The position numbers and the translations under genes are program-made. From Actinocatenispora sera (GTDB lineage Bacteria; Actinomycetota; Actinomycetes; Mycobacteriales; Micromonosporaceae), in NCBI RefSeq assembly GCF_018324685.1, contig NZ_AP023354.1:2604001-2668000 (forward strand): 64,000 bases of DNA, read 5' to 3'. The notes beneath the pieces were generated by a model. That model ran no database searches, had not been told where the DNA came from, and saw only the letters and a program-made list of their open reading frames with translations. How positions within the stretch are numbered: the stretch's first letter is position 1; the number at the start of each line of letters is the position of its first letter. Shown piece by piece: positions 5,623-41,715 of the stretch.

Positions 5623-8469
5623 ATGGCCGGCGTGAGTGCGCCGGTGGAGGTCTCGGCTCGGGAAGCCGAGGTGTTGCAGCTGGTCGGGCGCCATCTCAGC
5701 AACGCCGAGATCGGGGCACAGCTGTTCATTTCGGTCCGTACCGTCGAGAGTCACGTTTCCTCGCTGCTGCGCAAGCTGGGCGCCCCGGACAGGCGGGCGC
5801 TGGCCCGGCGCGCGGCCGAACCGGCGCGGCCGGCACTGCCTGCGCCGGCGACCTCGTTCGTCGGCCGGGCAACCGAACGGGCCGAGCTCGCCGCGGCACT
5901 CGCGGCGCACCGGCTGGTCACCGCGCTCGGCGCCGGCGGCGTCGGCAAGACCCGGCTGGCCCTGGCGGTCGCGGCGGACGTGGCCGGCTCGTACCGGGAC
6001 GGGGTGTGGTTCGTCGACCTGGCGCCGACCAGCGATCCCCGCATGGTCGCCGCCGCGGTGGCGGGTGCGCTCGGGCTCGGCGAGCAGCCGGGCCGCGGCA
6101 TGGCCGAGTCGGTGTCGGCCGCACTGGCCGACCGGCAGGCGCTGCTGGTCCTGGACAACTGCGAGCAGGTACGCGACGGGGTGGCCGACTTCGCCGATCG
6201 GCTGCTCGCGGCATGCCCGCAGGTCACGGCGCTGGCCACCAGCCGGGCCCGGCTGCTGGTGCCGTTCGAGTACACCTACCCGGTGCCGCCGCTGTCGCTG
6301 TCCGGCGACGGTACGTCAGAGGCGGTGGCGCTGTTCGTCGACCGCGCGGCGGCGGGCGGCGCCCGGCCGGAGCCGGCGGTACGGGACGCGGTCGCGGCGA
6401 TCTGCCGCCGGCTGGACGGGATGGCGCTGGCGATCGAGCTGGCCGCGGCGCGCTGGCCGGCGCTGGGGCCGGACGGCCTGGCCGCCGCGCTGGCCGACCC
6501 GCTGCGGACGCTGGCCGGTGGCTCCCGCGCGCACGACCGGCACCGTTCGGTGCGCGCCGCGCTGGACTGGAGCCACGCCCTGCTGGACCCCGATGCGCAG
6601 GCGTTGCTGCGCCGGACCTCGGTGTTCGCGGCACCGTTCACCGTCGCCGCGGCGGCCGAGGTGGCCGCGGTCGACGCCGGTAGCGCGGCCGACGCGTTGG
6701 CCCGGCTCACCGAGCAGAGCCTGCTGGTGGTGTCCGCAGCGCCGGCCGGCACCCGGTACCGGGCGCTGGAGACGATCCGGCAGTACGGGGCCGAGCGGCT
6801 CGCGGCGGCCGGCGAGGAGGCCGACACCCGGGTCCGGCAGCTGCGCTGGTGCCTGGCGGCCGCGGCCGAGCTGGCCGCGGGCGGCGACGACTGGCGGGCC
6901 CGGTTCGACGCGGTCGCCGACGACCTGCGTGCGGCGCTGGGCTGGGCGGCCGACCGCTGCGCACCGTCGCCGGACATCGCCCCGCCCGGGACACTCGGTG
7001 ACACCGCGCCGACGGGCCCGCGCCTGGCGGCGCTGCGGGAGGACGCGTGCCTGCTGGCGAGCCGGCTGGCGGAGCTGGCGTTCACCCGGAACCTGACCGG
7101 TGAGTCGCAGGCCCGGTACGAGCAGGCCGCCGGGCTCGCGGCCGACCCGGCACGGGCGGCGCCGATGCTGCGGCGGGCCGCGGCCGTGGCCGGCTGCCGC
7201 ACCCGCGGCGACGACGCGTACCGCCTGCACCGGGCGGCGGCCGAGGCGGCCCGCGCGGCCGGCGACCTCGCCGGCGTCGCGACCGACCTGGCCACCGCCG
7301 CAACCTGCGCGTACCGGTTCTCCACCAAGTTCGAGCGACTGCCGGCCCCGGCCGAGGTACTGGCGCTGCTGGCCGAGGCGCGGCAGCTGGCCGGCGCCGA
7401 CCCGGCGGCGCGCGCGGCGGTGGCGCTGGCCGAGGCCGGGGTGCTCGCGGACGCCTTCGGGGCGGCGCAGGGCCCGCCGGACAACGCGGTACCCGACACG
7501 ATCGCCGCGGCCGAGCGGGCGGTGACGCTGGCCCGCCGTACCGGGGACCCGATCGCCGAGTCTGCGGCGCTGGACGCGCTGACGGGGGCGCAGAGCTGGG
7601 CCGGCGACACGTTCGGTACCGCCGCCACCGCGCGGCGCCGCATCACGCTGCTGCGGTCGCTGCCGGTGACGCCGGCCAGCGCGCACGAGCTGGTCGACGC
7701 GCTGGGCATGGCGGTGGAGACCAGCCTGGGCGTCGGTGACCTTCCCGGCGCGTACCGCTGGGGGCGGCAGCTGGCCGACCATCCGTTGCTGGCCGAGGTC
7801 GGCCACCGGGCGACCGCCTGGCTGCTGGTCGCCGACGCGCTGGCCGGCAACGTGGCCGGGATCGGTACCCGCAGCGACCGGTTCCGCGAGGGCTGGCGGC
7901 GCGCCGGCAGCCCGGCGACCGCGGTGTTCACCCCGGCGGCGACCGGGGTGGCGGCGATCCACGCGCTGCGCGGCGACGAGGCGGCGCGGCGCGAGTGGGA
8001 GGCGATCCGGGACCGGCTCGGTACGCCGCCGGAGCACGCCTACGGCTACGGCGCGGTGTTCGACGCGCTGCGGTTGCTGCACGAGGGCGAGGTGGCGGCC
8101 GCGGTCGACCGGACCGCGCCGGAGCCGGACGAGGTGTGGAAGTGGGTCACCTGGATCTGGCTGCACTGGTACGTGGCGCTCCGGGCCGAGGCCGCCGTAC
8201 TCGCCGGCGATCCCGCCGCGCGCGACCGGGTCGCCGCGGCCCGGACGATCGTGGCCGGCAATCCGGTGGCTACCGCGCTGGTCGAGCGGGCCGCGGCGCT
8301 GCTCGACGGCGACCGGGACCGGCTGCTCGCCACCGCTGCGGCGTTCGACGTCGCCGAGTGCGGCTACCAGGTGGCCCGTACGTTCGTGCTGGCCGGCGGC
8401 GAGCACGCCGAGCGGGGCGCCCGCATGGTCGCCGAGCTCGGCCTCGCCCCGATGACCCCGCCGCCCTGA
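5623..8469 (+). CDS. LuxR-family regulator with N-terminal HTH, NB-ARC ATPase and TPR-like arm
   Basis: A 948-residue signal-transducing ATPase regulator. A LuxR helix-turn-helix sits at the N-terminus (residues about 10-62: AREAEVLQLVGRHLSNAEIG, TVESHVSSLLRKL), the reverse of the usual LAL order. An NB-ARC-type ATPase follows, with Walker A GAGGVGKT at 103-110 and Walker B LLVLDNCEQ at about 174-182, then RLDGMALAIELAAAR typical of AfsR/SARP-like ATPases. Residues about 400-948 are alpha-helical, alanine-rich repeats (TPR-like). ATG 5623 sits right after GGGAGA; in-frame GTG 5632 is an equally good start. Probably controls the divergent VOC gene. Confidence 0.9.
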   Translation: MAGVSAPVEVSAREAEVLQLVGRHLSNAEIGAQLFISVRTVESHVSSLLRKLGAPDRRALARRAAEPARPALPAPATSFVGRATERAELAAALAAHRLVTALGAGGVGKTRLALAVAADVAGSYRDGVWFVDLAPTSDPRMVAAAVAGALGLGEQPGRGMAESVSAALADRQALLVLDNCEQVRDGVADFADRLLAACPQVTALATSRARLLVPFEYTYPVPPLSLSGDGTSEAVALFVDRAAAGGARPEPAVRDAVAAICRRLDGMALAIELAAARWPALGPDGLAAALADPLRTLAGGSRAHDRHRSVRAALDWSHALLDPDAQALLRRTSVFAAPFTVAAAAEVAAVDAGSAADALARLTEQSLLVVSAAPAGTRYRALETIRQYGAERLAAAGEEADTRVRQLRWCLAAAAELAAGGDDWRARFDAVADDLRAALGWAADRCAPSPDIAPPGTLGDTAPTGPRLAALREDACLLASRLAELAFTRNLTGESQARYEQAAGLAADPARAAPMLRRAAAVAGCRTRGDDAYRLHRAAAEAARAAGDLAGVATDLATAATCAYRFSTKFERLPAPAEVLALLAEARQLAGADPAARAAVALAEAGVLADAFGAAQGPPDNAVPDTIAAAERAVTLARRTGDPIAESAALDALTGAQSWAGDTFGTAATARRRITLLRSLPVTPASAHELVDALGMAVETSLGVGDLPGAYRWGRQLADHPLLAEVGHRATAWLLVADALAGNVAGIGTRSDRFREGWRRAGSPATAVFTPAATGVAAIHALRGDEAARREWEAIRDRLGTPPEHAYGYGAVFDALRLLHEGEVAAAVDRTAPEPDEVWKWVTWIWLHWYVALRAEAAVLAGDPAARDRVAAARTIVAGNPVATALVERAAALLDGDRDRLLATAAAFDVAECGYQVARTFVLAGGEHAERGARMVAELGLAPMTPPP

Positions 8470-34023: not shown

Positions 34024-35253
34024 TCACCGCGACAGCAGATCGACCGCCCGGTCGCAGACCAGTTCCAGCGCCCGCCGCACCTCGGCGCCGGCGAAGCTGG
34101 TGGCGTGGAACGAGACGTCCAGGTGCAGCACGCCGGACAGCTCGGCCACCGACACCGTGACGGCGTCCGGCCCGCCCGGCGTCAGAACGGTCTCGTTGCG
34201 CCGCTGTGCCGGCGGCGCCGCCCACGGCAGGGGCTCCAACGGTTCGGTCCGGCCGAAGTGCGTGAGGGTGATGGCCGGAGCGCCCGCCCAGCGGTCGGCG
34301 GCCCGCGCGGAGTGCGGCGCGAGCATGACGTGCGCCGTACGGGCGGCCATCATCGACAGGGTGCGGCCGGCCGCAAGCTCCGCGCGTACCGCGGTGTCGA
34401 TGGCGACCGGGGAGTCGAGCGGATCGGGCCGCAGGTACTGGCCGAACGCGAAGTTGCCGCTGACCTCGGTCGTCGCGGGCAGGTAGCGGCGGGCGTCGAC
34501 CAGGATCGTCACGCCGGGTCCGCGCGGCGGTAACCCGGCGGCGGCGAACGCCCGCAGGATCGCGGCGAACAGCGCCGACGCGGTGCTCACCGCCGGGGCC
34601 GCGGCCGAGCGCCAGTCCCGCAGCGCCGGCAGCAGTCGCGCGGACCGTACCGAGACGTGGCTCGGTTCGGGCCGCCAGCCGGCCGGGAGCTGCCGCTCCG
34701 GCACCGGCGGCCGCACCAGCCGCAGCGCCGCGGGTACCGAGCGGGGATGGCGGCCGAAGTGACCGAGCAGCGCCCGTGCCAGCGGGGCGCCCAGCGGCGG
34801 GGTCGCCGGGTCGGGGTCGCAGCCGGTCGCGCTCGACGCGAGCGCACCGAGCAGGGTGTTGAAGCCGCGCCCGTCGGCGAGGCAGTGGTTGACCGCGGCG
34901 GCCAGGTAGTCGCCGCAGACCGCGAGCCGCAGCGGTGCCTCGTCGACATCGGCGGCCCGTACCGCGGCGAGCGCCTGCCCGGCCGGATCGCCGGCCGGTG
35001 TCGGGGTCGAAACGAGCGCGGCCACCTGCGCGGGGACCCCGACCCCGGTACGCGGCACCCAGCGCCGGCCGTCGACCAGCCGACACAGCGGCGGCCAGCG
35101 CGGGTCGTCGGCCTGCCGGCGGATCAGCGCGGTGCGCAGGTCGGCCGCGCACAGCCCGTGCAGCGGGCCGATCAGCCGCACCATCCGTACCGAGGTCCAG
35201 GCCCGGTCGCGGTAGGCCACCCGGCGGCCGACGCCGGCCTGATGCGCGCTCAT
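34024..35253 (-). CDS. Condensation-domain-like (CoA-dependent acyltransferase fold) protein
   Basis: A 409-residue protein of the condensation/PapA/WES acyltransferase fold. The catalytic motif appears as NHCLADG with H123 and D127 (HxxxDG), preceded by LRLAVCGDYLAAAV. A second region SGNFAFGQYLRPD near residue 270 fits the family's conserved GNF-type loop, and ITLTHFGRTEPLEPLPW lies on the floor of the tunnel. In this setting it most likely acylates the sugar chain. ATG 35253 overlaps the GH26-like stop by 4 bp. Confidence 0.78.
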   Translation of the reverse strand: MSAHQAGVGRRVAYRDRAWTSVRMVRLIGPLHGLCAADLRTALIRRQADDPRWPPLCRLVDGRRWVPRTGVGVPAQVAALVSTPTPAGDPAGQALAAVRAADVDEAPLRLAVCGDYLAAAVNHCLADGRGFNTLLGALASSATGCDPDPATPPLGAPLARALLGHFGRHPRSVPAALRLVRPPVPERQLPAGWRPEPSHVSVRSARLLPALRDWRSAAAPAVSTASALFAAILRAFAAAGLPPRGPGVTILVDARRYLPATTEVSGNFAFGQYLRPDPLDSPVAIDTAVRAELAAGRTLSMMAARTAHVMLAPHSARAADRWAGAPAITLTHFGRTEPLEPLPWAAPPAQRRNETVLTPGGPDAVTVSVAELSGVLHLDVSFHATSFAGAEVRRALELVCDRAVDLLSR

Positions 35254-36245
35254 CCCTGGAACCTCGGATCGGCACCCATCGCCTTGACGGCGGCGAGCAG
35301 CTGCGGGGTGGCGTCGATGCGCCAGCTCAGCGCCGTGCTCTGGGAGGTGTCGGTGTCGAACCAGATCACCGCCCGGGTGCGGGGATGTCGGGCCACCCAC
35401 CGGCGCAGCTGCCCGACCCAGTGCGCGGCGAACTTCCCGTCCGCGCGCACGCCGGTCTCGGCGAGCATGAACGGCTTGTCCGTGCCGAGGTTGTACACCC
35501 GGTCGAACAGCTGGGCCGGCGACTTGGTGCCGTAGCTGTAGCCCGACACCGCGATCCAGTCCACGTACCGGTCGCCGGGGTAGTAGCGCCGCACGTCGTT
35601 CCAGCGGGCGTCCGGGTTGGAGTTGCGGTTCGGCCCCCACACCCACTGCACGTTCGTCGCGCCCTGCTTCGCGAAGATCGCGTGCAGGTGCCGCCAGGCG
35701 GCGACGAACCCGGCCGGGTTCTTGCCGTTGGCCGCGCCGCCCCAGACGAACCAGTCGCCGTTCATCTCCCACCCCCAGCGCAGCAGCACAGGCTTGCCGT
35801 ACCGCTTGAGCCGGTCGGCCTGCTCGGCGATCCAGGTGTCCTGCGACCCGTCCAGGATCTGCCGGTAGTAGGTGCCGCGCCACGACGCCATCAGCAGCTG
35901 GCCGGGGTCCGGCGCGGGCGAGCCGACCAGCAGCGAGTCCTTCCAGGCGAAGAACTCCTGGTCGATCCGGTACGAGCGGCCCAGCTGCCGGCGCCGCAAC
36001 GCCTCCGCCTGCTCGTGCGTGTGCCCGGACAGATCCAGGTACGCGCCGAACATGACCCGCTGCGGCGCCGGCCGGCTGGGGGTCGCCGACGGCGACGGTC
36101 GCGCCGACACCGACGACCGGCCGGCCGGGCTCGGTGGGTCGGCGCCGCCGCCACCGGACCCACCGGTACCGCAACCGGACAGCACGACCACGGTCGTCAG
36201 CAGTGCGGCGAGCATCGCGCGGCACCGCCGGGTACGGCCGGTCAT
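35250..36245 (-). CDS. GH26-like glycoside hydrolase lipoprotein
   Basis: A 331-residue lipoprotein. The signal peptide ends at a lipobox LSGC (C25), followed by a Gly/Ser/Pro linker to about residue 62. The catalytic (beta/alpha)8-like domain shows LLRWGWEMNGDWFVWGG with acid/base candidate E160, and KPFMLAETGVRADG with nucleophile candidate E263, the spacing expected for GH26 beta-mannanase-like enzymes. It would act on the outer face, probably trimming the exported polysaccharide. The ATG overlaps the deacetylase stop. Confidence 0.86.
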   Translation of the reverse strand: MTGRTRRCRAMLAALLTTVVVLSGCGTGGSGGGGADPPSPAGRSSVSARPSPSATPSRPAPQRVMFGAYLDLSGHTHEQAEALRRRQLGRSYRIDQEFFAWKDSLLVGSPAPDPGQLLMASWRGTYYRQILDGSQDTWIAEQADRLKRYGKPVLLRWGWEMNGDWFVWGGAANGKNPAGFVAAWRHLHAIFAKQGATNVQWVWGPNRNSNPDARWNDVRRYYPGDRYVDWIAVSGYSYGTKSPAQLFDRVYNLGTDKPFMLAETGVRADGKFAAHWVGQLRRWVARHPRTRAVIWFDTDTSQSTALSWRIDATPQLLAAVKAMGADPRFQG

Positions 36246-37051
36246 GTCAGTACCCGGCCGGAGATCCGGAAGACCTGGCGCCGGACCAGCCGCCAGGCCG
36301 GCTGGCCCAGCGCCCGCAGCCGGGCCGCCCAGGCCGGGCCGCCGGTCTCCACCAGCTCGACCACCTGCTCCCCGGTCTGCTCCGGCGTGGGCAGCAGCCG
36401 GGACACGGCGAAGCGGTCCGCGCCGATGGTGTGCAGCGCGCGCCCGACGATGCAGGCGTTGTCGTAGCCGTGCCGCGCGACCGCGGCGCGCACCGCGGCG
36501 TCCTGGTACCCGTGCGGGTAGCAGAACGACCGGATGCGCCGCCCGTACCGTTCGGTCAACCGCTCGCGGGCGATCCGTAGCTCCTCGTCGACCTGGCCGC
36601 GCGGCAGGACGTCCAGCGGGCGGTGGGTGAGGCCGTGGCAGCCGATCTCGACGCCGGCCGCGGCCACCTCGTCCAGCTCCGGCCAGTCCAGCAGCCGGCC
36701 GAACAGCCCGGCCCGGTCGCCCAGCCAGTCGGCCTCGTCGCCGAGCTGTCCGACCACCGGGTACAGCGTCGCGCCGGCGCCGACGGCCAGCAGGATCGGC
36801 AGCGCGTCGAGGAAGTCCGCGTACCCGTCGTCGAAGGTCACCGCGACCACCGGGTCGGTGAACCCGCCGGACACCAGGTCGAGCGCGTCGCTGAGCCCGA
36901 CCAGCCGGTACCCGGCCGAGGCCAGCGCGGCGAGGTGTTCACGCAGCCGCCGCTGCGGCACGGCCAGCTCGGCGAGCGGCCCCGCCGGGACCGTCGACAC
37001 CGAGTGGTACATCAGCACCGGCAGTGTGGCCGGGCCAGGCGGGTCTGCCAC
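36242..37051 (-). CDS. Polysaccharide deacetylase (NodB domain, CE4)
   Basis: A 269-residue CE4 enzyme. Motif 1 is VTFDDGYADF (72-80) with the catalytic D-D pair; motif 2 is CHGLTHRPL with zinc ligands H139 and H143; FCYPHGYQ follows as motif 3. These enzymes remove acetyl groups from N-acetylated sugars. No signal peptide is seen with GTG 37051, which has an AGAAGAGG site. It is the first gene of the minus-strand set. Confidence 0.88.
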   Translation of the reverse strand: MADPPGPATLPVLMYHSVSTVPAGPLAELAVPQRRLREHLAALASAGYRLVGLSDALDLVSGGFTDPVVAVTFDDGYADFLDALPILLAVGAGATLYPVVGQLGDEADWLGDRAGLFGRLLDWPELDEVAAAGVEIGCHGLTHRPLDVLPRGQVDEELRIARERLTERYGRRIRSFCYPHGYQDAAVRAAVARHGYDNACIVGRALHTIGADRFAVSRLLPTPEQTGEQVVELVETGGPAWAARLRALGQPAWRLVRRQVFRISGRVLT

Positions 37052-37407
37052 GATGCCTCTTCTCGTCGTGGTGCCGGGCGCGAACCCGACCCGAGTATCG
37101 GCACCGGCCGGGCCCGCAGACATCCACCACTCAGCCGGTACCCTCCGCCGCTCGGGCGCGCCGGGCCGCCCGAACCGCCCCGCCGCGGCGCCGACCGGCT
37201 CGCGCCGGGGCACTCCGCAGTACCGTTTCCGGCCGCGCAGCTCCCACCGCGGTGGACGGGCGGGAATGTGCGCGAACTGTGGAGTGCCGAGGCGTCAGCT
37301 GATACGGTCATGCGCGACGAAAGTTCGTGACGGGTCAGGGAGCGCTCAATCGACGTTCCAGCCGATGTTTCGGCCGCGTTGTGAGCGCGCGATCACCTGG
37401 AGGTGGT
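37052..37407. other. Divergent spacer before E1/peptide operon
   Basis: 356 bp between the deacetylase and the E1-like gene. A weak promoter may be TGTGGA (37278-37283), 16 nt, TGATAC (37300-37305), and a small dyad ACGAAAGTTCGT lies at 37317-37328. The half next to the deacetylase is Pro/Arg-coding-like GC-rich DNA with no supported gene. Confidence 0.35.
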
Positions 37408-38523
37408 ATGCGGCCCCGACTCAAGTCCGTCGCCTGGGAACGCGACGGTGCCCGGCTGCGGTTGGTGCACGACGTACGCGACCGGTTGCTCGTCGAGGAC
37501 CCCGACGGTGCGGTCGAGCGGCTGCTGGAGCTGCTCCGGGCCGGCGGCCGAACCGTCGCCGAGCTGGCGGAGCAGTTGGCGATGCCGGTGGACGACGTCG
37601 TCGCGGCCGTCGCGGCGCTCGACGAGTACCGGTTGCTGGAGGATGGCGAGCGGCTCGGCGGGTTCGGCGCGGCCGACAGCGAGCGCTACTTCAGCAACCT
37701 GGGCTTCTTCGAGACGTTCGCGTCGCTGTCGTGCAGCCGGGAGGACTTCCAGCGCCGGCTGCGCGCCGCACACGTTCTCGTGCTGGGCACCGGCGGGCTC
37801 AACTCCAACACGGTGCCGCACCTGTGCGGGCTGGGCGTCGGACGGCTGACCCTGCTGGACCGCGACACCGTCGACGCCCGCAACTTCGCCCGTCAGTACC
37901 TGTACCGGTGGGGCCAGCGCGGCGACCGCAAGGTGGCGCGGGCCGGCGAGTGGGTGCGCGAGTTCGACCCGGCGATCGAGGTGGACACGATCGACGCGGC
38001 CGTGGACTCGGCGGCGGCGCTGGCCGCGCTGCTCGACGAGTACGCGCCGGACGTGGTGATGTCCGGGATCGACAGCCCGGCCGACGTGGACGACTGGGTG
38101 AACGCGGAGTGCGTGCGTGCCGGTGTGCCCTACGTGCGGGGCGGCATGTGGGTCAGCCAGGGCGTCGTGTGGTCGGTGGATCCCGGCCGCAGCGCCTGCC
38201 GCCGGTGCGGCGTGCACGAGCCCGACGACGGTGACGCGGCCGGCGAGGCGGCCGCCATCCGGTTGCACGCCACGAAGCCGCGCGTCAACCGCGGCATCGG
38301 ACCGGTGGCCGGGCTGCTCGGTTCGCTGGCCGCGTTCGAGGTGTTGCGCTACCTCACCGGCTTCGAACCACCCGCGTACGCCGGCAGCCCCATCTCGGTG
38401 GACTTCGCGGCCGGTTGCCGGACCGATCAGGTCGAGTGGGCGCGCGATCCCGCGTGCCCGGTGTGCGGATCGATCGACGCGTCCGTTGCGACGGCCGGCG
38501 ACGCCGGCCTGGGCCGGCCGTGA
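37408..38523 (+). CDS. E1/ThiF-like adenylyltransferase with N-terminal leader-binding-like domain
   Basis: A 371-residue E1-superfamily enzyme. Residues about 6-80 form a small winged-helix domain (RLLVEDPDGAVERLLELLRA, then TVAELAEQLAMPVDDVVAAV) of the kind that binds RiPP leader peptides. The adenylating domain has LVLGTGGLNSNTVPHL (ATP loop, 127-134), D151 and D153 (LLDRDTVDARN), R162/Q163 and K175, so the catalytic set looks complete. Zinc cysteines are C264, C267, C350 and C353. There is no rhodanese or JAMM domain. It resembles MccB/PaaA-type peptide adenylators more than ThiF. ATG 37408 has GGAGGTGG; the peptide gene lies 64 bp downstream. Confidence 0.87.
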   Translation: MRPRLKSVAWERDGARLRLVHDVRDRLLVEDPDGAVERLLELLRAGGRTVAELAEQLAMPVDDVVAAVAALDEYRLLEDGERLGGFGAADSERYFSNLGFFETFASLSCSREDFQRRLRAAHVLVLGTGGLNSNTVPHLCGLGVGRLTLLDRDTVDARNFARQYLYRWGQRGDRKVARAGEWVREFDPAIEVDTIDAAVDSAAALAALLDEYAPDVVMSGIDSPADVDDWVNAECVRAGVPYVRGGMWVSQGVVWSVDPGRSACRRCGVHEPDDGDAAGEAAAIRLHATKPRVNRGIGPVAGLLGSLAAFEVLRYLTGFEPPAYAGSPISVDFAAGCRTDQVEWARDPACPVCGSIDASVATAGDAGLGRP

Positions 38524-38532
38524 GCCGTCCCT

Positions 38533-38558
38533 CGGTGGCCGCCGGCCCGGCGCCACCG
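38533..38558. other. Hairpin between E1-like gene and peptide gene
   Basis: CGGTGGC and GCCACCG form a 7-bp stem. It starts 9 nt after the E1 stop and ends about 14 nt before the strong ribosome site of the peptide gene. Such a structure can protect the 3' message and raise precursor levels, or act as a partial terminator. Confidence 0.5.
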
Positions 38559-38587
38559 AGCGGAGCCGTCGGAAGGAGGTGAACGCC

Positions 38588-38665
38588 ATGAAGATCGAGA
38601 TCAAGAAGATCGAGAACACCCGCCTGACCGGTTGTCAGATCGCGGGCAAGCTGTGCGACTCCTGA
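38588..38665 (+). CDS. Candidate RiPP precursor peptide, 25 residues, two cysteines
   Basis: A 26-codon gene (with stop). The peptide begins MKIEIKKIEN, a charged alternating segment suited to pair as a beta-strand with a leader-binding domain. It ends CQIAGKLCDS, a short core with C16 and C23. An almost perfect ribosome site, GGAAGGAGGTGAACGCC, precedes the ATG. AAG/ATC/GAG codons dominate and the local GC content is lower than around it. It lies between the E1-like enzyme and a PqqD-domain protease on the same strand. I do not recognise a named peptide family. The alternative, an accidental small frame, is unlikely given the ribosome site and placement. Confidence 0.78.
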   Translation: MKIEIKKIENTRLTGCQIAGKLCDS

Positions 38666-38712
38666 GGTGACCACGGTTCGGCCGGCCGGTACGACATGTC
38701 TGGAGGTGTCTC

Positions 38713-39963
38713 GTGACCACCGTTGGTGCCGATCTGGCTGCGGCGACGGCGCCGCTGGTGGTGGCGCGCGACGGCGCGGAGTGCGTACTGGGCCGGCCGG
38801 ATCTGGGGCTGTTCGTCACGGTGCCGGAGCCGGGCGCGGTGTTCGTGGAGGCGCTCCAGTCGGGTGCCTCGCTGGCCGAGGCGACCGACGCCGCGACCGC
38901 GGCCGCCGGCGAACCGGTCGACGGTGCGGACTTCGTGGCAACGCTGACCGCCGCCGGTCTGCTCGACCCGGTCGCGACGCAGCCGGACGCGGATCCGGAC
39001 GGGGAGGCTTCGCCGATCCGGGGTCGGCGGCAGCGGCCGATCCGGTGGATCGAAGGGGTCGACCCGGCGGTCGCCCGCCGGTTCTTCGGCCGGCCGGCCT
39101 GGATCGGGTACGGGTCGGCGGCGGCGATCGCGGTCGTGCTGCTGGTGGCGCGGCCGGAGTTGCGGCCCAGCTTCGAGAGCGTGTGGTTCCTGTCCGATCC
39201 GCTGCTGTCGCTGCTGGCGTTGCTGCCGTTGAGCCTGCTGTTCAATGCGCTGCACGAGATGTGGCACTGGCTGGCCGGCCGGGCTCTCGGCATCCCGGCG
39301 ATCTTCCGGTTCAGCTACCGCGGCGTGTACGTGGTGTTCGAGACCGATCTGAGCCAGATCGTCACCGTACCGCGGCGCCGCAGGTACGGCCCGTTCCTGG
39401 CCGGGATGGCGGTCGACAGCACCGTGCTGGCGGTCGTGTTGCTCGTCCGGTTGGCATACCTGCGGCAGCTCGTCGAGCTGCCGCCGCTGCTCGACCGGGT
39501 GCTGGCCGCCCTGGTGCTCAACCAGGTCATCTCGCTCGTGTGGCAGTTCGGCGCGGTGTTCCTCCGGTCCGACATGTACGCCGTGCTGGCGAACGCCTTG
39601 CGCTGCACCAACCTGTACCGGGTGACCTGGCTGACCACCAAGAACCGGCTCTGGCGGTTGTCCGACGACGACCGGGCCGAGCTCGCCGCGGCGAGCTCGC
39701 GGGACCGGACCGTGGCGCGCTGGTTCGGCGTGGTGTACCTGGTCGGGATCGGCGCCATGTGCTGGCTGTTCCTCACGTTCAACCTGCCGATCGTGCTGTC
39801 CATGCTGGTGTACGTCGGTGGCAACCTCGTCGTGCCGTCGGCGCATTCGGTGCCGTTCTGGGAGTCCGCCGCCGTCTCCCTCTACTTCCTCGTCGTGTAC
39901 GGCACTCCGGGGCTGCTGGCACTGCGCGAACGGCGACTGCGCAGGAAGGGTCTGCTGCTGTGA
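38713..39963 (+). CDS. PqqD-domain fused M50-like membrane metalloprotease
   Basis: A 416-residue protein. Residues about 15-88 form a PqqD-like domain (LVVARDGAECVLGRPDLGLF, VDGADFVATLTAAGLLDP), another leader-binding fold. About eight membrane helices follow. The zinc motif FNALHEMWHWLAGRALGIP holds H181, E182 and H185 (HExxH), and D235 in AGMAVDSTVL is the likely third ligand, as in M50/site-2 proteases. It probably binds the precursor and cleaves or exports it, like YydH in epipeptide systems. GTG 38713 has GGAGGTGTC. Its stop overlaps the next start by GTGA. Confidence 0.85.
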   Translation: MTTVGADLAAATAPLVVARDGAECVLGRPDLGLFVTVPEPGAVFVEALQSGASLAEATDAATAAAGEPVDGADFVATLTAAGLLDPVATQPDADPDGEASPIRGRRQRPIRWIEGVDPAVARRFFGRPAWIGYGSAAAIAVVLLVARPELRPSFESVWFLSDPLLSLLALLPLSLLFNALHEMWHWLAGRALGIPAIFRFSYRGVYVVFETDLSQIVTVPRRRRYGPFLAGMAVDSTVLAVVLLVRLAYLRQLVELPPLLDRVLAALVLNQVISLVWQFGAVFLRSDMYAVLANALRCTNLYRVTWLTTKNRLWRLSDDDRAELAAASSRDRTVARWFGVVYLVGIGAMCWLFLTFNLPIVLSMLVYVGGNLVVPSAHSVPFWESAAVSLYFLVVYGTPGLLALRERRLRRKGLLL

Positions 39964-40520
39964 GCCGCTTTCTCTGGCGGGCCGCCGCCGTCGGGGCGAT
40001 CGTCGCCGCGGTCGTCGCGCTGCTGGTCGGCCCGTACCGGGCACAGCTGGTGGCCACGGCCGCCGGTTCCCGCGCCCCGAGTCGCGCGGCACCGTGCCTG
40101 CCCGGTACGGGGGTGGCCATCATGGACAGCCCGCACATCTCGGTGGCGAGGGCGGCGTCCGTTCGGTACAACTCCGATCCGCCGACCTCCGGTCCGCACT
40201 TCCCGTTCGTGGCCGCGGTCGGCATCTACACCGCACCGTTGCCCGACGGGTTGACCGTGCACGCCCTCGAGCACGGCCACGTCGTCATCCACTACCCGCC
40301 CGCCACGGCGCCGGCGACCGTACGGCTGCTGCGCGACGTGCAGCGGCGCTTCCCCGCCGACACCCTGCTGGTGCCCCGCCCCGGCCTGCGCTCCATCACG
40401 CTGACCGCCTGGGGCCGCATCGACCGGCTCCCGCGCTACGACGAGGCGCGCATCGTCCGGTTCGTCACCGCCCTGCGCGGGCGCTACGACCATCACTGGA
40501 CGCGCCCCGACGGCTGCTGA
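39960..40520 (+). CDS. DUF3105 family protein, membrane-anchored
   Basis: A 186-residue protein with an N-terminal signal anchor (LWRAAAVGAIVAAVVALLVG) and an outside domain. The DUF3105 signature is clear: VRYNSDPPTSGPHFPFVAAV and LTVHALEHGHVVIHYPP near residues 95-112. The clustered histidines could bind a metal. The family has no established function and is often found near membrane or secretion genes. The GTG overlaps the protease stop (GTGA), so it is translated with the peptide operon. Confidence 0.87.
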   Translation: MSRFLWRAAAVGAIVAAVVALLVGPYRAQLVATAAGSRAPSRAAPCLPGTGVAIMDSPHISVARAASVRYNSDPPTSGPHFPFVAAVGIYTAPLPDGLTVHALEHGHVVIHYPPATAPATVRLLRDVQRRFPADTLLVPRPGLRSITLTAWGRIDRLPRYDEARIVRFVTALRGRYDHHWTRPDGC

Positions 40521-40540: not shown

Positions 40541-40581
40541 GGCCGGTCCGCCGGCCCAGCCGGATTGGTCCGGTTGGTTTT
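40541..40581 (+). terminator. Terminator of E1/peptide operon
   Basis: GGCCGG-TCCG-CCGGCC (40541-40556) is followed by CCGG-N6-CCGG (40560-40573) and then TTGGTTTT. This hairpin pair with a T-rich end, 20 nt after the DUF3105 stop, marks the operon's end and sets the questin-oxidase-like gene apart. Confidence 0.6.
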
Positions 40582-40650
40582 GCCCGTGATGGCCCTGTGC
40601 GAGCCGCCGTGGGTGGACGAGCCTGGGCAGCGAGGCGGAGGGAGCTGGCG

Positions 40651-41715
40651 GTGAACAGCGGAGCGCTGGACGACGCGTACGAGCGGCTGCATCGGATGGG
40701 CCCGGAGTACGAGGGGGACAGGGACCACAACAACGGGCTGACCAACCACGGCCCGATGGCGGCCGAGGTGCTGGCCCGGCGCGGGTACGGCGACCGGATC
40801 GGGCGCTGGGTCGACGGGTACCTGCCCCGGTTGGTGGAGCTGCCCGACACCCGGCAGCCGATCGCCGAGGCGAACTGGACCGCCGCGCTCGGCGACGGCA
40901 GCCGCGTCGCCGACTGGGTCGACCACTTCCGGCGGGAGCTGGCCGACCGGCCATGGCGAGAGGTACTGGTCGAGTGGTGGCCGCGGCTGCTGCCGGGGAT
41001 CGTTGCCGGCTCCACCCACGGGCTGATCCGGGTCGGTCACGCGGTGCGGGCGTTGCAGGACGGCGCGACCGGCCCGGCCGGTCTGGACGAGTTCGGCCAC
41101 GGGCTGGCGTTCTGGGCGGCGCGGTCCCGGCCGGTCCCGGCGGCACACCGGCCGGCCGGGCACCTCGAACCCGACCAGGCGCTCGCCGGCATCCCGCACC
41201 TGGCCGACCAGAGCGGGCTGATCGTGCAGCGGCTCGGCCGGCTCGCCGAACTGCCCGGGTGGCCGGCCGCGCAGGCGGCGCTGCGTGCCCCGGCGGCACC
41301 CGCGGAGGTACCGGAGCTGCTGGAGCGGCTCGTCGACGCCGCGGTGCTGCGCTACCTCGAGCGCGGCCACGGCAGCCCGGTGCTGCTGGTGCACACCGCC
41401 ACCGCGCCGAACGCGGTACTGCACACGCTGCCGCTGCTGCCCGACGAGCTGTGGGCGCCGAGCCTCGCCGCCGTGTGGTCCGCGTCGGCCGCGATCGTCT
41501 CCGCGTACGAACCGGCCCAGCCGCTGGCGCGCGCCGAGCTGCCGGCGGCACCGCGCGGCGACGACCCGGCCACCGCGATCGTCGAGCGGGCCACCGACCA
41601 CGGGGACGAGCACGTCATGAAGTTCACCGACACGGCGGTGGAGGCGTACGAGCGCACCGGTGACCCGGACACGCTCGCCGCCGCCCGGCACATCGTCGAG
41701 CTGACCTGCCGCTGA
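40651..41715 (+). CDS. Questin oxidase-like (DUF4243) protein
   Basis: A 354-residue helical protein. Family features include DDAYERLHRMGPEYEGDRDH with NNGLTNHGPMAAEVL, IVAGSTHGLIRVGHAVRAL (conserved H), and VLLVHTATAPNAVLHTLPLL near residue 250. Questin oxidase is a cofactor-independent Baeyer-Villiger-type ring-cleaving oxygenase in fungi; bacterial members act on unknown substrates. GTG 40651 follows a GGAGGGAG site. It is separated from the peptide operon by a terminator-like structure. Confidence 0.85.
   Translation: MNSGALDDAYERLHRMGPEYEGDRDHNNGLTNHGPMAAEVLARRGYGDRIGRWVDGYLPRLVELPDTRQPIAEANWTAALGDGSRVADWVDHFRRELADRPWREVLVEWWPRLLPGIVAGSTHGLIRVGHAVRALQDGATGPAGLDEFGHGLAFWAARSRPVPAAHRPAGHLEPDQALAGIPHLADQSGLIVQRLGRLAELPGWPAAQAALRAPAAPAEVPELLERLVDAAVLRYLERGHGSPVLLVHTATAPNAVLHTLPLLPDELWAPSLAAVWSASAAIVSAYEPAQPLARAELPAAPRGDDPATAIVERATDHGDEHVMKFTDTAVEAYERTGDPDTLAAARHIVELTCR

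Follow-up and report, generated by a model that had tools for sequence, protein, structure and literature searches.

The pathways of pantocin A (PaaA), GRC (GrcB), enterofaecin (EnfB) and Ind (IndF) each combine a ThiF-like enzyme with a precursor peptide, and a carboxylate of the precursor is adenylated, as described in portions of two publications (PMC12250964, PMC12150305). Portions of the first describe a Glu-Cys thiolactone as the product of GrcB, and for EnfB activation of the C-terminal carboxylate followed by attack of a backbone nitrogen (PMC12250964). For MccB of microcin C, sections of a further paper describe C-terminal activation, in which a Gly-ended substrate is adenylated and thiols from outside then capture the O-AMP (PMC13255007). 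Here we analyse a four-gene set in 64,000 nucleotides of Actinocatenispora sera DNA (assembly GCF_018324685.1, contig NZ_AP023354.1, positions 2,604,001 to 2,668,000), a stretch referred to below as the window. The set occupies positions 37408-40520 and encodes an E1 enzyme, a 25-residue peptide, an M50 protease and a DUF3105 protein, in this order and all on the plus strand. An earlier reading of the letters and open reading frames (ORFs) of this DNA, hereafter the sequence-only reading, had described four same-strand genes in 3.1 kb, and all four are present where it placed them. The set probably encodes a compact pathway for a ribosomally synthesized and post-translationally modified peptide (RiPP), with C-terminal adenylation by E1, capture by a nucleophile other than cysteine, leader removal by the M50 protease, and action of DUF3105 on a pair of cysteines. 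The features of the set, including domains that resemble the RiPP recognition element (RRE), are as follows.

37408-38523, plus strand: E1 (MccB/ThiF-like) adenylating enzyme, RRE-E1, 371 aa, ThiF Pfam E 4.6e-41; predicted winged-helix/RRE-like domain at about residues 1-85; GxGGxN at 127-132; D151/D153, N159, R162, Q163, K175 and D222; zinc cysteines 264, 267, 350 and 353.
38573-38582, plus strand: Shine-Dalgarno sequence AAGGAGGTGA of the peptide gene, 5-nt spacer.
38588-38665, plus strand: precursor peptide gene, 25 aa, MKIEIKKIENTRLTGCQIAGKLCDS.
38588-38629, plus strand: proposed leader MKIEIKKIENTRLT, with a predicted leader-core border.
38630-38662, plus strand: proposed core GCQIAGKLCDS, with the same predicted border.
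38713-39963, plus strand: RRE-fused M50 intramembrane metalloprotease, 416 aa; putative RRE at about residues 16-80 (38758-38952).
39253-39267, plus strand: HExxH of the M50 protease, residues 181-185; Asp287 is the likely third ligand.
39960-40520, plus strand: DUF3105 protein, 186 aa, PF11303 E 6e-25; N-terminal helix at residues 2-34, likely a membrane anchor; weakly thioredoxin-like model.
40260-40280, plus strand: H101-x2-E104-H105-G-H107 of DUF3105 (H101-H107); a further histidine is H80.

Relatives were collected in three sets. The first came from an M50 search over 298 genomes of the order, 36 of which matched, the host included; outside the window there were 43 match places, of which 38 were examined, and E1 lies beside M50 in 12 and DUF3105 in 4 of these 38 loci. 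The second came from a scan of a species collection with one short pattern of the M50 alignment, and the best 80 of 108 relatives were taken; E1 lies on the same strand within 4 kb of M50 in 73 of the 80, and DUF3105 is present in 14. Because the scan started from M50, the second set does not give the frequency of such E1 enzymes without M50, and because some species occur in both, the first two sets are not fully independent. The third comprises 19 places, 18 chosen by E1 and one by M50. The second set includes Micromonospora, Kribbella, Nonomuraea, Actinomadura, Streptomyces, Nocardia, Actinocrispum and other genera, as well as four Bacillota loci and one cyanobacterial metagenome-assembled genome. 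The four-gene combination thus recurs in other genomes, and the predicted RiPP pathway spans Actinomycetota, Bacillota and this cyanobacterial assembly.

Relatives show the 25-residue peptide to be a conserved precursor. A leader motif, [ILV].[ILV][RKIT][KR][ILV][ED].{4}T, was derived from the precursors of the window and the first set, and ORFs of 15-70 residues on both strands of 80 named loci were searched with it. Near M50 (504,986 bases) there are 63 matches in 62 of the 80 loci, all on the coding strand, and there is none across the remaining 700,075 bases, a control on which a chance ORF was rejected as the origin of the peptide. Within the window a single ORF matches, namely the peptide gene. 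In the first set, each of the 12 loci with E1 has next to it a short ORF whose leader is related, and a precursor is present in 68 of 73 E1 loci of the second (61 via the motif and seven, L126, L132, L124, L127, L137, L144 and L147, by eye) and in 16 of 19 places of the third. Consistent with translation of the peptide, the Shine-Dalgarno sequence is perfect and occurs once in the window, both strands counted; the sequence-only reading had likewise pointed to a strong ribosome site. A check of peptide conservation in relatives was set beforehand, and because the precursor is kept near E1 and M50, a RiPP-type pathway, as first proposed from the sequence, is supported. Some loci carry more than one precursor copy. 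In L039 a copy with the same leader and an apparently frameshifted C-terminal part (7337-7471) lies upstream of the copy at 7688-7774, and in Pontibacillus chungwhensis (L126:6318-6731) four tandem precursors share one leader and have three different cores ending in GG or AG.

We compared 87 unique E1-linked precursors (66, and 21 added later). They are 18-57 aa long and share the leader motif, while the cores, of 4-21 residues, are variable. The last residue of the motif is Thr in 84 of the 87. The C-terminal residue is Gly in 32, Ser in 16, Thr in 11, Ala in 10, Val in 9, Gln and Asn in 3 each, and Leu, Ile and Arg in one each; G, S, T, A, V, Q or N thus ends 84 of the 87. A rule that the C-terminus is always small was dropped for the three exceptions. 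The pair [Asp/Glu]-[Ser/Thr] ends nine of ten precursors compared, one of which (L233) lies outside the clade of the window in a later tree; the tenth, L228, ends in Cys-Ser. Asp24 or Ser25, which the sequence-only reading had named as a possible partner of the adenylated carboxylate, therefore fares better than its other suggestion, a Cys thiol. Because of this C-terminal pattern and the scarcity of cysteines in the cores, the C-terminus is the likely target of E1, and Cys is unlikely to be the general nucleophile. The precursors thus fit E1 action at the C-terminus.

The E1 enzyme is MccB-like, with nearly complete ATP- and zinc-site residues. When a family profile of 12 E1 proteins is compared with solved structures, MccB ranks first (1.4e-49), followed by MoeB (5.9e-43) and PaaA (3.8e-40, aligned from position 2). 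In an alignment of 54 E1 proteins, chosen out of 86 at hand, R93, G127, G129, G130, G143, D151, D153, N159, R162, Q163, K175, D222 and the four zinc cysteines are present in all 54. At position 132, where the loop has its third Gly, 51 proteins have Gly, two (window included) Asn and one Ala. A PqqD match is found in four of the 12 E1 proteins (E up to 0.1). No Cys other than the zinc cysteines is invariant in the alignment, which makes a ThiF-type sulphur relay through the enzyme unlikely.

The M50 protein is predicted to join an RRE/PqqD-like fold to an HExxH membrane protease. The window protein itself has no match in Pfam or NCBIfam scans; among 46 aligned family proteins, the window included, Peptidase_M50 is matched in 17 and PqqD in 14 (E up to 0.01). 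The AlphaFold 2 model (predicted local distance difference test, pLDDT, 89.8) has an N-terminal beta3-alpha3 domain of three strands and three helices. In a Foldseek search with this domain, TbiB1, a lasso-peptide RRE solved with its leader, is the best PDB match and takes ranks 1-4 and 6 (probability 0.98-1.00, E-values 0.07-0.48). A sequence profile search with M50 also retrieves TbiB1 (0.0072) and TfuB1 (0.083). The PqqD-like domain is thus well supported. HExxH and Asp287 are present in 54 of 54 aligned M50 proteins, and the modelled window protein has the features of peptidase family M50, namely HExxH and a distal Asp in membrane helices. The PqqD-like domain and HExxH named in the sequence-only reading are thus both borne out.

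The DUF3105 protein scores 88.2 bits against a gathering cut-off of 25 (PF11303). Its gene overlaps that of M50 by four bases, as the sequence-only reading had noted. The presence of DUF3105 follows the cysteines of the core. In an early count, exactly two core cysteines were found in 14 of 14 unique precursors with DUF3105 and in 0 of 52 without it (three had one), a perfect rule that was weakened by loci found later. In the larger comparison, at least two core cysteines are present in 18 of 20 precursors with DUF3105 and in 1 of 67 without it (Fisher p 1.8e-15, uncorrected for relatedness). L229 and L230, which have DUF3105 but depart from this pattern, have cores free of Cys and altered DUF3105 histidines (H105Q and H107Q in L229; H101Q, H105L and H107D in L230). 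These histidines are invariant in the 14 DUF3105 proteins of alignment A4 and are also present in L227, L228 and L233; A4 includes L079, a locus without known precursor, whereas L081 (cut by a contig end) and L094 are in neither DUF3105 alignment. Decayed DUF3105 copies thus appear to explain in part the exceptions to the association. A third relative, L226, has no Cys in its core and no DUF3105 but keeps E1 and M50. The pattern suggests that DUF3105 probably acts on the Cys pair.

DUF3105 proteins are also common outside such clusters, with copies in 157 of the 200 genomes sampled from the order; in the host genome the cluster copy is the sole one. Common and cluster copies belong to the same Pfam family and share PP-x-x-GPH and H-x2-EHG. 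The common proteins, however, read EHGAV (five copies, from five of ten sampled rows; L165, L171, L175, L181 and L191 were in the wrong frame and left out), whereas the cluster copies read EHGHV. In bit score, the window copy reaches 88.9 and copies of other genomes about 149-175, among the best matches listed. The model of the window protein (pLDDT 78.5) shows a long N-terminal helix and one domain. No mention of DUF3105 was found in the open-access literature searched.

The proposed pathway would proceed as follows. Both E1 and the M50 protease would bind the 14-residue leader through their RRE domains, and E1 would use ATP to adenylate the core at its C-terminal carboxylate, which in the window is that of Ser25. 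The acyl-AMP would be captured by a nucleophile other than a core cysteine; a small outside nucleophile or the backbone at the last residues seems slightly likelier than side-chain ring closure. The membrane-bound M50 protease would cleave the leader near the conserved Thr14 and may aid export. DUF3105, with its single N-terminal helix as an anchor and its domain probably facing outside, would act through its histidine centre on the two core cysteines, for example by forming a disulfide or another Cys-Cys link, as the correlated loss of histidines and cysteines suggests.

A broader version of this scheme is possible but doubtful. The cluster DUF3105 would be a new kind of Cys-modifying RiPP enzyme acting on the E1-capped peptide, specifically a membrane-anchored, thioredoxin-like domain without CXXC whose metal-type centre HxxEHGH joins or oxidises the core cysteines outside the cell. 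The RRE-M50 protease would be the one fixed element at the centre of a large RiPP superfamily with exchangeable modification modules (E1, a tetratricopeptide repeat (TPR) protein, or DUF6039/3-hydroxy-3-methylglutaryl-CoA (HMG-CoA)-synthase-like proteins).

Other outcomes of the E1 reaction have to be weighed against the proposed capture. E1 could join the C-terminal carboxylate to the hydroxyl of the border Thr between leader and core, giving an autoinducer-like macrolactone. The near-constant border Thr and nine of the 87 cores that lack any other side-chain nucleophile (no C, K, S, T, Y, H or W) would suit such a ring. Nevertheless, E1-free M50 loci likewise have Thr or Ser at the border, a sign of recognition by the protease, and core length ranges from 4 to 21; a macrolactone is unlikely. 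Still less probable is attack of a core Cys thiol on the activated carboxylate, giving a GRC-like thiolactone. The window core has two cysteines and GrcB provides a precedent in the portions of PMC12250964 cited above. However, most E1-linked cores are Cys-free, where DUF3105 is lacking 66 of 67 unique precursors have at most one core cysteine, and Cys follows DUF3105 rather than the E1 clade. Within the clade of the window, L226, L229 and L230 are Cys-free yet keep E1 and M50, so the Cys link of the sequence-only reading is unsupported as the E1 reaction.

MoeB and ThiF, relatives of E1, activate proteins with a C-terminal Gly. The peptide might by analogy be a sulphur carrier or ubiquitin-like tag rather than a RiPP precursor, and the 32 Gly-ended precursors would agree with this; but the short precursors with a leader motif and variable cores, and the PqqD/RRE-like domains of E1 and M50 relatives, make it very improbable. 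The host genome has four ThiS/MoaD matches, the nearest about 180 kb from E1, and a sulphur carrier beside E1 was rejected; ThiS/MoaD matches occur also in nine other genomes, the distance to E1 being placed for the host genome only, so that this check of the sequence-only reading is answered for the host alone. It is scarcely credible that E1 does no more than serve as a docking scaffold, in the manner of YcaO partner proteins: ThiF-like proteins can be docking partners in azole pathways according to parts of two papers (PMC12150305, PMC7136475) and the window protein has a TIGR03882 match below the cut-off, but the whole host genome has no YcaO match (the control search was positive in 5 of 14 genomes) and all 54 aligned proteins keep the 16 invariant positions, among them those of the ATP and zinc sites.

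Several observations weigh against the proposed pathway of C-terminal adenylation, non-Cys capture, M50 cleavage and DUF3105 action. The window E1 sequence by itself ranks MoeB (2.8e-24) above MccB (1.3e-17), and its third ATP-loop glycine is Asn; the sequence-only claim of intact ATP and zinc residues holds for the residues listed above but the loop is GxGGxN, not GxGGxG. E1 is missing from all three further genomes listed for the genus. Five of the 73 E1 loci of the second set (L079, L123, L148, L151 and L152, two of them cut or partial) gave no precursor, nor, by these tests, did L237, L243 and L244 of the third set. The Thr or Ser at the leader end of E1-free M50 loci leaves this residue with no certain bearing on E1. 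For DUF3105, L232 has a two-Cys core without it, and the test of association treats related loci as separate. The losses of Cys amount to about two events on the simplest reading, because L229 and L230 are sisters (100/100) and L226 lies apart, with unstarred forks between them. The fold match of DUF3105 is weak, with about 37 of the best 50 of 574 matches thioredoxin- or protein disulfide isomerase-like by title, a best E of 0.034 and none below 0.001, and the protein lacks CXXC. Finally, among 81 loci no transporter, regulator or immunity gene stands at a fixed place; a major facilitator superfamily family occurs in 6 of 81 at scattered distances, and an upstream family with no name assigned in 22 of 81.

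These families come from clustered ORFs of at least 70 aa from 81 regions, of which eight proteins were annotated. E1, M50 and DUF3105 are the families with a fixed place; the others are clade-restricted, antisense or scattered, and an aldo/keto reductase family occurs in 8 of the 81 regions. Gene order varies in L086, L103, L105 and L107, where the precursor follows M50; in L086 and L103 E1 comes after the precursor.

Phylogenetic trees of E1 and M50 differ in the placement of DUF3105 loci. In quick trees of 54 rows, which have some long branches and leave L226-L233 out, the E1 tree places DUF3105 loci in two distant clades, and joining them is rejected (approximately unbiased test, p 4.35e-5), whereas the M50 tree places them on one side of a branch (Shimodaira-Hasegawa-like approximate likelihood ratio test 76), a grouping neither shown nor rejected. 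The Micromonospora and Kribbella clusters therefore look like hybrids, with leader and E1 from one lineage and M50, DUF3105 and the two-Cys core from the other.

M50 loci without E1 carry precursors of other kinds. In the first set, 16 of 26 such loci have a related but different leader by eye (MKKIxVRKAGxVRLT or RRLEPVKTS kind). L044, L046, L047, L050-L053, L057 and L063 have Cys-containing precursors of the MKKIxVRKAGxVRLT type; a TPR-repeat protein, annotated as such, follows M50 in L052 and L063, and the next gene in L046 has no Pfam match. These loci look like a second branch of the same protease-centred RiPP superfamily. An unusual candidate RiPP set lies in L054 (7673-11255), where the precursor MKTLTVRRLEPVKTTAASGCGAANKVA adjoins the RRE-M50 protease together with a DUF6039 protein and a protein resembling HMG-CoA synthase.

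Within the window, the peptide is the sole gene between E1 and M50, with gaps of 64 bases to E1 and 47 bases to M50. The sequence-only reading had closed the set with a terminator; a scan downstream of DUF3105 found none, and the stretch with a hairpin at about 40557-40576 folds no better than shuffles (z 0.25). Downstream lies a gene for a questin-oxidase-like protein (40597-41715, plus strand), and upstream, on the opposite strand (35250-37213), genes for a polysaccharide deacetylase and a GH26-like protein; nothing links any of these to the pathway. The host genome comprises 7.04 Mb in one contig. A second ThiF-like place in it (G000:C1:3119000-3131000) shows no similar cluster by eye in the ORF list alone. 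An E1 match (E up to 1e-30) is found in 25 of 300 genomes of the host family, its own included.

The family adds a wide E1-based branch of peptide pathways in Actinomycetota, and no description of this gene set was found in the open-access literature searched. Because the precursors are small enough to synthesise and two to three enzymes are involved, the bond made by E1 is directly testable in vitro. The association of DUF3105 with core cysteines is a separate, unexpected clue to DUF3105, and provides a first genetic lead to a possible role of this widespread family.

Among known systems, microcin C resembles the window set in its short precursor and in MccB, the top structural match of the E1 family profile. 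It differs in that MccA is a heptapeptide (MRTGNAN) with an Asn end, whereas the window peptide ends in Ser and Asn ends 3 of 87 precursors; the precursors here, moreover, have a leader, and E1 has an RRE-M50 protease beside it (the loci having been found through M50). The Ind pathway has an M16 protease, as described in part of PMC12150305, where the window set has M50, and the term M50 is absent from the main texts of PMC12250964 and PMC12150305. The main text of the review among them names no Streptomyces, Nonomuraea, Micromonospora, actinobacteria or actinomycete. Daptides are similar in that MpaP, an RRE-dependent intramembrane peptidase, takes off the leader, according to portions of PMC10036551. 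Their modifying enzymes, however, are other than E1. Of five M50 proteins scanned with the daptide model NF041824 (cut-off 300), L054 (25.9 bits) and L132 (31.2 bits) score far below the cut-off and three, the window included, are unmatched, and daptide membership was rejected on these scores. The modifying enzymes of epipeptide and pearlin pathways are radical S-adenosylmethionine enzymes and peptide-aminoacyl tRNA ligases (PEARLs), respectively, and not E1. EpeP of epipeptides and TglG/TmoG of pearlins are, as here, M50 proteases in RiPP pathways, as described in parts of PMC10885120. A YcaO-type azole pathway (thiazole/oxazole-modified microcin, TOMM) was rejected on the YcaO search of the host genome. 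An earlier survey of the E1 superfamily may already contain a prediction of this family. The sequence-only reading knew of no described class with this exact set, which agrees with the literature searched, but it overstated the novelty, because the ThiF-like enzymes of the GRC thiolactone, enterofaecin and Ind indolylamide pathways are published and the four genes recur elsewhere. ThiF-like RiPP enzymes are thus already known, and it is the combination and the lineage that are new, as far as the searched open literature goes.

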